From positions 551,012 through 615,011 of the forward strand of contig LT599018.1 in the NCBI GenBank assembly GCA_900079685.1: a stretch of 64,000 nucleotides of DNA, read 5' to 3'. Source of the DNA: an uncultured delta proteobacterium (lineage in GTDB: Bacteria; Desulfobacterota; Desulfovibrionia; Desulfovibrionales; Desulfovibrionaceae). Below the pieces are notes generated by a model. The model saw only the letters and a program-made list of their open reading frames with translations, was not told where the DNA came from and did not search any database. Shown here in pieces: positions 39,664 through 42,162 of the stretch. A program made the position numbers and the translations under genes. The stretch's first letter is position 1. Each line of letters begins with the position of its first letter.

Positions 39664-40458
39664 ATGCAAACGCCGATCATTGTCCCAATCATCGTCATGG
39701 GCGCGGCAGGCCGCATGGGATCAACCATTACCCGCCTGGTGCGCGAGGACGCTTCTCTGCGGCTCGCGGGCAGGGTTGAGCACGCCGCCCGGCTGGGGGA
39801 ACTGACCCCGGTTGAGGGATGCGCTGACGGCGACAGCCTTGAGGCTGTTCTTGCCGGTATTACCAAACCCGTCATCATTGACTTCACTTCTCCCGCCTCC
39901 AGCGTGGCCACGGCGAACATCGCGGCGAAACACGGCGCCGGGCAGGTTATCGGGACGACCGGCCTCACGGAGCAGGAACTCGCCGAGTTGCGGGCCTGCG
40001 CGGAAAAGACCCCGATTTTCTGGTCGCCCAACATGAGCGTGGGCGTGAACGTGCTGCTGAAAATTCTGCCGGAACTGGCCCGCTTGCTGGGCGAAAATTA
40101 TGATATGGAAATGGTGGAAATCCACCATAACAAGAAAAAGGATTCCCCAAGCGGCACCGCACTGCGCCTTGCCGAAGCCATGGCCAAGGCGCGGGACTGG
40201 GAGTTGAAGGACGTCGCCTGCTGCCACCGCGAGGGCATCGTCGGCGAGCGACCCAAAAAAGAAATGGGGTTGCAGACCGTGCGCGGCGGCGACGTGGTCG
40301 GCGTGCACACCGCGTATTTCCTGGGACAAGGAGAACGCATCGAAGTGACGCATCAGGCTCATTCGCGCGAGAATTTCGCCCAGGGGGCCTTGCGGGCGGC
40401 CAAATGGCTCGCCGCGCAAAAGGCGGGCGGGCTTTATTCCATGGAAGACATGCTGTAG
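39664..40458 (+). CDS. dapB: 4-hydroxy-tetrahydrodipicolinate reductase
   Basis: DapB makes tetrahydrodipicolinate for lysine and diaminopimelate. The 264-aa product has the NAD(P)H motif VMGAAGRMGS (residues 12-20), IDFTSPASSVATANIAA, GTTGLTEQEL, and the active-site segment EIHHNKKKDSPSGTALRLAEA. The C-terminal FLGQGERIEVTHQAHSRENFAQGALRAAKWL is also typical. The ATG follows GAGGATTTTTGT; a start six codons earlier is in frame. lysC, first enzyme of the same pathway, is at 4.4 kb in a different operon. Confidence 0.95.
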   Translation: MQTPIIVPIIVMGAAGRMGSTITRLVREDASLRLAGRVEHAARLGELTPVEGCADGDSLEAVLAGITKPVIIDFTSPASSVATANIAAKHGAGQVIGTTGLTEQELAELRACAEKTPIFWSPNMSVGVNVLLKILPELARLLGENYDMEMVEIHHNKKKDSPSGTALRLAEAMAKARDWELKDVACCHREGIVGERPKKEMGLQTVRGGDVVGVHTAYFLGQGERIEVTHQAHSRENFAQGALRAAKWLAAQKAGGLYSMEDML

Positions 40459-40506: not shown

Positions 40507-42162
40507 ATGAAGATCGGCATACTCCAGAATAATCCCATAGCGGGTGACCTTACGGGAAATGCCGCCGCCCTGCTCGCGGCGGTCCGCAACGCGGCGTCCA
40601 CGGGCGCGGACGTATGCATTGCCCCGGAACTCGCTCTGTGCGCGCACCCGCCGTCTGACCTCCTGCTCAGTGAATCGTTCATCGTCGCCTGCGGGAAAAC
40701 CTTGCAGGCGATGGCCCAGACCTTACAGAGCGAATCGCTCCCGCCGCTTCTTCTCGGCGCTCCGGTTGCCAACCCGGTCCCCCAGGGCAAAAGCATCCAC
40801 AACGGCGCCGTGTTTTTGCGGGACGGCAAGGTTATCGTCATCTGCCGCAAGGTTTTGCTCCCCTGCGAAGGCAGCCGGGAAGACCAGCGCTATTTCGAGC
40901 CCGGGGTCGCCTGCGGCATGGTCCAGTACAAAGGCTGGCGGCTCGCCGTGACCATCGGTGAGGATATCTGGAACGACCGCACATTCTGGCACGGGCGGCG
41001 CACCTATGAGACGGACCCGGTCGCGGAAGCCATGACCAGCGGGGCCGACGGGTTGATTAACCTCGCGGCGCTGCCGTTCCAGATCGGCGGGGATTACCTC
41101 CACGAGCGCATGCTCGGCTGGTCCGCCGTCCGGTACCGGGTTCCGCTTCTCTGCGCGAACCAGGCCGGCGGCCAGGACGGGCTGATTTACGGCGGCAAGA
41201 GCGTCTGTTTCAGCCCCTACGGGGCCGTCACGGCCCGTGCGGCGGCCTTTGCCGAGGACGTGCTGCTTGTGGACCTGGTGAAACCCGGCGACCCCATTGA
41301 CGCGCCGGCCCCTTCGGATGAAGCCGATATCTGGGCCGCCCTGACGCTCGGCATCCGCGACTTCGTGCGCAAATGCGGCTTTTCCAGCGTTGTGCTCGGG
41401 CTTTCCGGCGGGATGGATTCCGCCCTGGTCGCGGCCCTGGCCGTGGACGCCCTGGGGCCGGAGAACGTGCTCGGTGTTCTGTTGCCGTCGCCGTTCACGT
41501 CCGGGGAAAGTATCGACGTTGCGGAAAAACTCGCGGCCAATCTTGGCATCAAAACGCACACCGTCCCGATCGAGCCCATGATGCGGGCGTTTGAGGGCGC
41601 GTTCGAACCCGTGTTCGCCGGCAGAAAACGGGATGTGACGGAGGACAACCTCCAGGCCCGGATCAGGGGCACGGTATTGATGTCTCTTTCCAACAAATTC
41701 GGTCACATGCTGCTGAATACGGGCAACAAGTCCGAAATCGCGATGGGGTACTGCACCCTTTACGGCGACAGCTGCGGCGCGCTCGCCGTTATCGGCGATC
41801 TGTACAAAACCCAGGTGTTTTCCCTGGCCCGGTGGTACAACCAGCGCCAAGGGCATGACCGCATACCACAGTTCATTATCGACCGTCCCCCTTCGGCGGA
41901 ACTGCATCCGGACCAGAAGGACGAAGACTCCCTGCCGCCTTATGACGTGCTGGACAAGATCCTGTATGACCATATCGAAATGCGGATGGGCTTCGATACG
42001 CTGTGCGAAGTGGGGCACGCCCCGGAAGTCGTCAAGCGGACGCTGCATCTTTTGACGATTGCCGAGTTCAAGCGCCACCAGGGTCCGCCCGCCCTGTGCG
42101 TGAGCCAGCGCGCCTTCGGGAGCGGCTGGCGTATGCGGATCGCCTGCAAACCGGCGCAATAA
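40507..42162 (+). CDS. nadE: NAD synthetase of the glutamine-dependent architecture, catalytic Cys absent
   Basis: NadE amidates deamido-NAD to NAD. The 551-aa chain has an N-terminal nitrilase-like glutaminase domain and a C-terminal synthetase domain with the PP-loop LGLSGGMDSALVAALAVDAL near residue 298 and NTGNKSEIAMGYCTLYGD. In the glutaminase domain Glu41 and Lys115 of the E-K-C triad are present, but the nucleophile position is Gly151 (IGEDIWND instead of ICEDIW; codon GGT at 40957-40959). As written, the domain should not hydrolyse glutamine, so the enzyme may use free ammonia. AAGGAG lies ahead of TTG-ATG; I take the ATG. A strong terminator follows. Confidence 0.94.
   Translation: MKIGILQNNPIAGDLTGNAAALLAAVRNAASTGADVCIAPELALCAHPPSDLLLSESFIVACGKTLQAMAQTLQSESLPPLLLGAPVANPVPQGKSIHNGAVFLRDGKVIVICRKVLLPCEGSREDQRYFEPGVACGMVQYKGWRLAVTIGEDIWNDRTFWHGRRTYETDPVAEAMTSGADGLINLAALPFQIGGDYLHERMLGWSAVRYRVPLLCANQAGGQDGLIYGGKSVCFSPYGAVTARAAAFAEDVLLVDLVKPGDPIDAPAPSDEADIWAALTLGIRDFVRKCGFSSVVLGLSGGMDSALVAALAVDALGPENVLGVLLPSPFTSGESIDVAEKLAANLGIKTHTVPIEPMMRAFEGAFEPVFAGRKRDVTEDNLQARIRGTVLMSLSNKFGHMLLNTGNKSEIAMGYCTLYGDSCGALAVIGDLYKTQVFSLARWYNQRQGHDRIPQFIIDRPPSAELHPDQKDEDSLPPYDVLDKILYDHIEMRMGFDTLCEVGHAPEVVKRTLHLLTIAEFKRHQGPPALCVSQRAFGSGWRMRIACKPAQ

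Follow-up and report, generated by a model that had tools for sequence, protein, structure and literature searches.

A fused NAD synthetase of Desulfovibrionaceae with a probable pseudo-glutaminase domain and predicted dependence on ammonia

The nadE gene of the window (the whole 64,000-nucleotide stretch of DNA analysed here) encodes a two-domain NAD synthetase, the glutaminase domain of which carries a glycine in place of its catalytic cysteine. The locus raises the question of where such an enzyme obtains the nitrogen for NAD, and why it has kept the domain. Most probably, this NadE depends on ammonia, its glutaminase chemistry has been lost, and the N-terminal domain is retained as a pseudo-glutaminase.

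The nadE gene and its glutaminase site

The features of the locus are collected in Table 1. Pfam places CN_hydrolase at residues 2-257 (E 4.9e-17) and NAD_synthase at residues 276-525 (E 3.5e-72), and the NCBIfam model NF010588 (NAD+ synthase) gives the protein 598 bits, the cut-off being 479. Both the domain order and the score are those of the fused two-domain form, and the nitrilase fold of residues 1-262 sets the protein apart from the single-domain type N, which has no glutaminase domain. The synthetase motifs SGGMDS (at 300) and TGNKSE (at 405) are intact. An AlphaFold2 model built from a 31-row alignment (A2) has a mean pLDDT of 88.5 and a pTM of 0.90. The solved structure closest to it is 3n05_A (Z 40.9, rmsd 2.2, 518 residues); taken by themselves, residues 1-259 match nitrilase-family amidases with Z of about 30. 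The confidence of the model and the nitrilase-fold matches predict that the dead domain folds.

Table 1. Features of the nadE locus (window coordinates)
Feature	Position	Strand	Remarks
dapB, just upstream of nadE	39664..40458	+	
nadE, two-domain NAD synthetase, 551 aa + stop	40507..42162	+	ATG 40507, TAA 42162
N-terminal nitrilase-fold (pseudo-)glutaminase domain, residues 1-262	40507..41292	+	Pfam CN_hydrolase; predicted-fold match to nitrilase-family amidases
Glu41, catalytic acid/base position	40627..40629	+	retained
Lys115, catalytic lysine position	40849..40851	+	retained
YRE loop, residues 121-126	40867..40884	+	EGSRED for YDVFDE; Tyr lost, second Glu to Asp
Gly151, catalytic Cys position, codon GGT	40957..40959	+	motif VTIGEDIW
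Residues 187-195	41065..41091	+	AALPFQIGG for SASPFxxGK
C-terminal NAD synthetase domain, residues 268-551	41308..42159	+	Pfam; 66/73 canonical invariants kept
ATP P-loop SGGMDS, at residue 300	41404..41421	+	intact

An earlier, sequence-only reading of this DNA had noted Gly for Cys at the nucleophile, in a full-length nitrilase domain that keeps Glu41 and Lys115. Each of these points is borne out: codon 151 is GGT within the motif GEDIW, Pfam finds the domain, and both residues are present. The glycine is no lone oddity, because further residues of the glutaminase site are changed (Y121E, F124R, E126D, S187A, S189L and K195G) and the state is lineage-wide. In the model, Gly151 is positioned where strand 144-150 meets helix 151-154. 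In the part of the source drawn on here (PMC6946656), the YRE loop is described as a glutamine contact, the second Glu of which sets the position of the catalytic Lys. The Ser/Lys segment 187-195 may contact glutamine as well. Among the marks of a working class IV amidotransferase, the protein thus has the Glu and the Lys and lacks the Cys nucleophile and the YRE loop.

The changes are concentrated in the glutaminase domain. When invariants are defined as the positions with a conservation of 97% or more across 75 canonical rows (L055, which starts in another frame, being left out), the window NadE has changed 13 of the 45 in the glutaminase domain, whereas only 7 of the 73 in the synthetase domain differ. 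No canonical row has more than 2 glutaminase and 4 synthetase invariants changed. Contigs of a viral collection served as a control: 80 NadE-like loci gave 38 two-domain frames of at least 440 aa (L223-L256 and others, some of them near-duplicates), and all 38 keep the Cys, the Glu and the Lys. This rules out the Cys as a freely varying residue of NadE.

NadE in relatives and the loss of the cysteine

A NadE match was found in 185 of 198 relatives. Part of these were fetched and, together with follow-up genomes, yielded a survey of 114 frames in 111 genomes. The window's own family, which is Desulfovibrionaceae by its named members, accounts for 95 frames, spread over 41 genera. Left out were L087 (distant, below the score limit), L078-L081 (duplicates or fragments) and L147 (a duplicate of L303). 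Position 151 is Cys in 85 frames, Gly in 11, Ala in three and a gap in 15; 76 frames were classed as canonical and 38 as degraded. Alignment of the relatives at residue 151, which the sequence-only reading had proposed, shows that a genome of the same genus and two other genera have Gly as well. The same-genus protein (G001) is 87% identical to the window's and encodes Gly151 by GGC; that of G011, 69% identical, has Gly151 too, as do G034, G098 and G062, and three g34 genomes carry Gly. The Cys-less fused NadE is therefore lineage-wide among the window's relatives, and it recurs in a second family. The degenerate domain occurs in Lawsonia intracellularis (G047 in genus g7, identified as strain PHE/MN1-00 by a 100% plasmid match). 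The pattern [x]GED[x]W has 15 sites in 395 genomes of the phylum and 16 in a reversed control, only the window's own site falls in NadE, and eroded variants (G192, G223) are missed.

The degraded proteins represent several stages. The Cys is kept and the YRE loop lost in g40 and g26; Gly or Ala stands at 151 in g1, g11, g34, g19, g17, g35 and g2; and the active-site region is erased in g42 and g39. In G007, G072 and G091 (g7) and G083 (g34), translated searches with 15 glutaminase domains detected no such domain in any frame of the fetched stretch. The synthetase domains of these four genomes are 55-60% identical to the window's, and in G083 the upstream sequence is present without a glutaminase domain. 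As the synthetase domain is of this lineage and its partner is undetectable, the domain has been lost there.

A canonical copy of NadE is found in five g34 and g19 genomes, where these copies form a supported clade of their own; three of the five also carry a Gly copy. Two second copies in g19 (L073 in G055, L074 in G094) have Gly at the nucleophile, open reading frames and a canonical copy in the same genome. Both of their domains are eroded, with 17 and 23 of the 73 synthetase invariants changed, and the dead glutaminase domain is the slower to change.

The residues of the old site have fared differently. Gly, Ala or Ser occupies position 151 in 22 proteins. E41 survives in 20 of the 21 that can be scored and K115 in 21 of 22, the lone exception being L113; the rows are related, so that these counts are not independent. 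They are nevertheless fairer than the 24 of 24 for both residues that results when eroded rows are set aside, which is biased. In the same 22 proteins Y121 is kept in three, K195 in six and S189 in six. Gly is over-represented among the replacements of the Cys (five of an assumed eight events; p 0.005 if one in six is expected), a rough figure because the number of events is an estimate.

Several individual genomes of the survey deserve mention. L148 (G145) is a NadE that looks canonical except that Arg stands in place of the catalytic Lys115. L087 (G110, g34) is a short frame of 255 aa, about 24-28% identical to the synthetase domains of the window's protein and of a relative; no glutaminase domain was found near it, and a foreign NadE of the single-domain type has perhaps replaced the original here. 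In G087 (g41), which a plasmid match identifies as Desulfolutivibrio sulfodismutans, the NadE L084 is plasmid-borne (G087:C2, 51,725 bp; NZ_CP045505.1, 100% match), and a related Desulfolutivibrio copy is located on NZ_CP045507.1. No NadE of its own was found in G068, a genome of the same genus in a single contig of 4.16 Mb. In G026 and G118 (99% and 93% complete), a PF02540 search gave weak short matches only and no convincing NAD synthetase.

How often the Cys was lost was approached by trees. In a careful tree of the synthetase domain with 69 rows (45 of the 114, being long, near-duplicate or distant, were left out), the 28 degraded rows split from the 41 canonical ones (support 99/89). A quick RpoB tree covers 70 of the 78 genomes searched (G001, G002, G030, G069 and G091 are among those lacking a usable rpoB). 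It places the degraded genomes, G033 and G192 excepted, within one clade of 37 genomes (SH-aLRT 93), which also includes the canonical-only G065 (g38), G077 and G106 (g19) and two genomes without a detected NadE. The split would agree with a single loss in Desulfovibrionaceae, yet AU tests also allow the window clade to be joined to the canonical rows: p is 0.88 on the 114-row quick tree, the constrained tree being 24 log units higher, and 0.35 and 0.51 on the careful tree. The degraded NadE of G033 (L082), in which E41 is Ser and the YRE loop is lost, comes from outside the main RpoB clade, which suggests another, separate loss.

In the second family (f20, of the same phylum) the Cys is absent from 5 of 30 fetched NadE proteins, and from 9 of 32 rows (eight Gly, one Ser) when genus g73 is sampled more fully. 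In a careful f20 tree of 35 rows the Cys-less proteins fall at four points: five form a clade (100/99), two form a pair (100/100), and L350 and L312 stand singly among Cys rows. Both singles stem from incomplete assemblies (75% for L350, 68% for L312) and may be errors; the clade and the pair are not easily explained in this way. All other listed motif residues are kept in L350, and nearly all in L343 (S187A) and L312 (Y121F). Since these sites are otherwise intact or nearly so, the loss of the Cys was an early step there.

Selection on the domain and the source of ammonia

Compared with its same-genus relative, the window nadE gives a dN/dS of 0.070 for the glutaminase domain and of 0.093 for the synthetase domain. 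The ratio of glutaminase-domain to synthetase-domain distance (G/S) has medians of 0.66 (g1 with g11), 0.64 (g34) and 0.34 (g19, a single pair) in Cys-less groups; in g40, where the Cys is kept and the YRE loop lost, the median is 0.51. In 15 of 16 canonical genera the median lies between 1.14 and 2.48; in g38 it is 0.71. The degraded medians are lower than the canonical ones (Mann-Whitney p 0.0015 with g40 and 0.0043 without it). The full-length dead domain thus lags behind the attached synthetase domain in its rate of change, whereas most active enzymes show the opposite, and this argues against simple decay. Relative to RpoB, the near-pair medians of the synthetase domain are 4.70 in degraded and 2.04 in canonical lineages, an acceleration of about two-fold, so that a good part of the low G/S is due to the synthetase domain. 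When all near pairs are taken, the glutaminase domain is likewise faster in degraded lineages (5.22 versus 3.38), and within genera its RpoB-normalised values (about 1-4) resemble those of canonical pairs. It can be stated firmly, as a relative statement only, that within these genera the dead domain evolves roughly as fast as a live one, and its synthetase partner faster.

By combining these observations, it is possible to propose how the enzyme works. The C-terminal domain would adenylate deamido-NAD with ATP and then amidate it with free ammonia. The N-terminal domain, having no Cys, could not form a thioester and probably could not hold glutamine. Purifying selection maintains its fold, most likely because the domain is needed for assembly and forms part of the ammonia path to the synthetase site. 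The nucleophile and further residues of the site are gone, the synthetase motifs are intact, no other NadE was found in the genome, and the relatives are alike; taken together, this makes the reversion to ammonia, one of two suggestions of the sequence-only reading, the best-supported one on present sequences. An ammonia-rich habitat of the organism is plausible. From the sequences we infer that glutaminase activity is absent, that ammonia is the donor and why the domain is retained; a residual non-covalent hydrolysis of glutamine is formally still conceivable.

More tentatively, and with a low probability, the dead glutaminase might serve as an intake port for ammonia. The change of Cys to Gly would remove a side chain lining the constriction that separates the glutamine tunnel from the ammonia tunnel; the Glu41-Lys115 pair would capture ammonium and deprotonate it, and NH3 would enter the old tunnel. 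Such a port, if real, would explain the usual replacement by Gly, the survival of the Glu and Lys despite the lost glutamine contacts, and the conservation of the domain. Stability alone may account for the retention of the buried Glu-Lys pair, or the pair may handle ammonium.

It is possible, though rather unlikely, that the domain is instead a functionless vestige which drifts neutrally and is being lost. The erased genera g39 and g42, with G/S of 2.92 and 1.92, and the four genomes without a detectable glutaminase domain would fit such a course. The low dN/dS of the domain in the window's lineage, below that of the synthetase domain, and the retention of E41 and K115 in nearly all Cys-less proteins speak against it.

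That a separate glutaminase or nitrilase partner feeds ammonia to NadE, as in the two-subunit enzyme of Thermus thermophilus mentioned in the portion of PMC3376133 used here, is improbable. The genome does have four other nitrilase-family domains, which on the NadE model are far under the cut-off of 479 or unscored (two reach 75.4 and 57.4 bits). By NCBIfam, however, they resemble general amidases, a nitrilase and Lnt, of which only Lnt passes its cut-off; none adjoins nadE, and NadE keeps its own fused domain. Genome-wide domain searches found no nitrilase, class I or class II amidotransferase domain adjoining nadE, so the other suggestion of the sequence-only reading, ammonia supplied by a partner, is not supported. 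In translated searches of 31 related loci (flanks of at most 1.5 kb, some ended by contig edges), dapB matches on the 5' side of nadE in 18.

All four class I amidotransferase matches in the genome (L179-L182) have an intact GxCxG motif. Three of the four class II matches above the cut-off start with MCGI; L336 gave no MCG match, and a fifth, L337, lies below the cut-off and outside this count. A genome-wide shift to ammonia is thereby ruled out, and the loss looks specific to NadE.

Loss of NAD synthesis altogether, with the protein in another role, is very improbable. It would agree with the accelerated synthetase domain of degraded lineages and with the two g19 second copies eroded in both domains. 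Against it stand the 66 synthetase invariants and the SGGMDS and TGNKSE motifs that are kept, and a genome search found no second NAD synthetase. The other, weak PF02540 match (C1:898558) is taken to be GuaA, because a GATase match with an intact Cys motif precedes it within a frame of the same length (543 aa). The genome also encodes NadA and four CTP_transf_like genes, a family that includes NadD. A sequencing or assembly error hiding an ordinary enzyme, for which it can be said that the codon is one base away from Cys, is ruled out in practice by relatives with Gly151, some with a different codon (GGC), and by the dozen more glutaminase positions that are changed.

Comparison with known NAD synthetases and amidotransferases

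De Ingeniis 2012 (PMC3376133), in the parts considered here, sorts NadE into enzymes that use glutamine, whether fused or in two subunits, and single-domain enzymes that use ammonia. There, a fused protein with its interface elements is taken to signal the use of glutamine, and the distribution of the forms is accounted for without any further fusion or fission. Sections 15-17 of that paper contain no description of a fused NadE with a lost Cys, and none of the titles, abstract openings and best-ranked matches of the open-access literature revealed a two-domain NadE without the glutaminase Cys. By their sequences, the proteins described here would be a fused form of NadE without glutaminase chemistry. 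They present the switch back to ammonia at several stages (loss of the Cys alone, lost glutamine contacts, erased active-site regions and missing domains), and thus a series for how amidotransferases lose their glutaminase. The predicted nitrogen need for NAD synthesis is altered in a group that includes Lawsonia intracellularis. They also raise the question of why, measured against its catalytic partner, a dead domain should be better conserved than a live one.

The window protein shares its domain order, family model (NF010588) and full-length fold with the type F two-domain enzymes (3n05, 4f4h, 5kha and 3dla), to which its predicted structure is matched with Z of 40.9 (3n05), 34.3 (5kha) and 34.0 (4f4h). 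The Glu and Lys of the C-E-K triad are common to both, whereas the Cys is Gly in the window protein, and its YRE loop and Ser/Lys region are lost. With the single-domain type N (1xng, 2e18) it would share the chemistry of ATP and ammonia; it differs in being of the fused form with a full nitrilase domain. The model also matches the C176A variants of Mycobacterium tuberculosis NadE (3sdb, 3seq, 3sez and 3szg), which are folded although the nucleophile has been removed. These are engineered single changes in an ordinary glutaminase site, unlike the window NadE.

The glutaminase of human carbamoyl phosphate synthetase I (CPS1) is of class I and not a nitrilase. Being of a different glutaminase class and a different pathway, CPS1 is an analogue and not a homologue of the window NadE. 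The parallel with carbamoyl phosphate synthetase I in animals lies in the outcome: as stated in the sections of PMC4655335 relevant here, human CPS1 has its glutaminase Cys replaced (Ser294), retains the glutaminase-like domain and uses external ammonia, and its frog relative is unable to use glutamine even though it has the triad. By analogy, the NadE proteins of g40 and g26, in which the Cys is kept, may resemble the frog enzyme.
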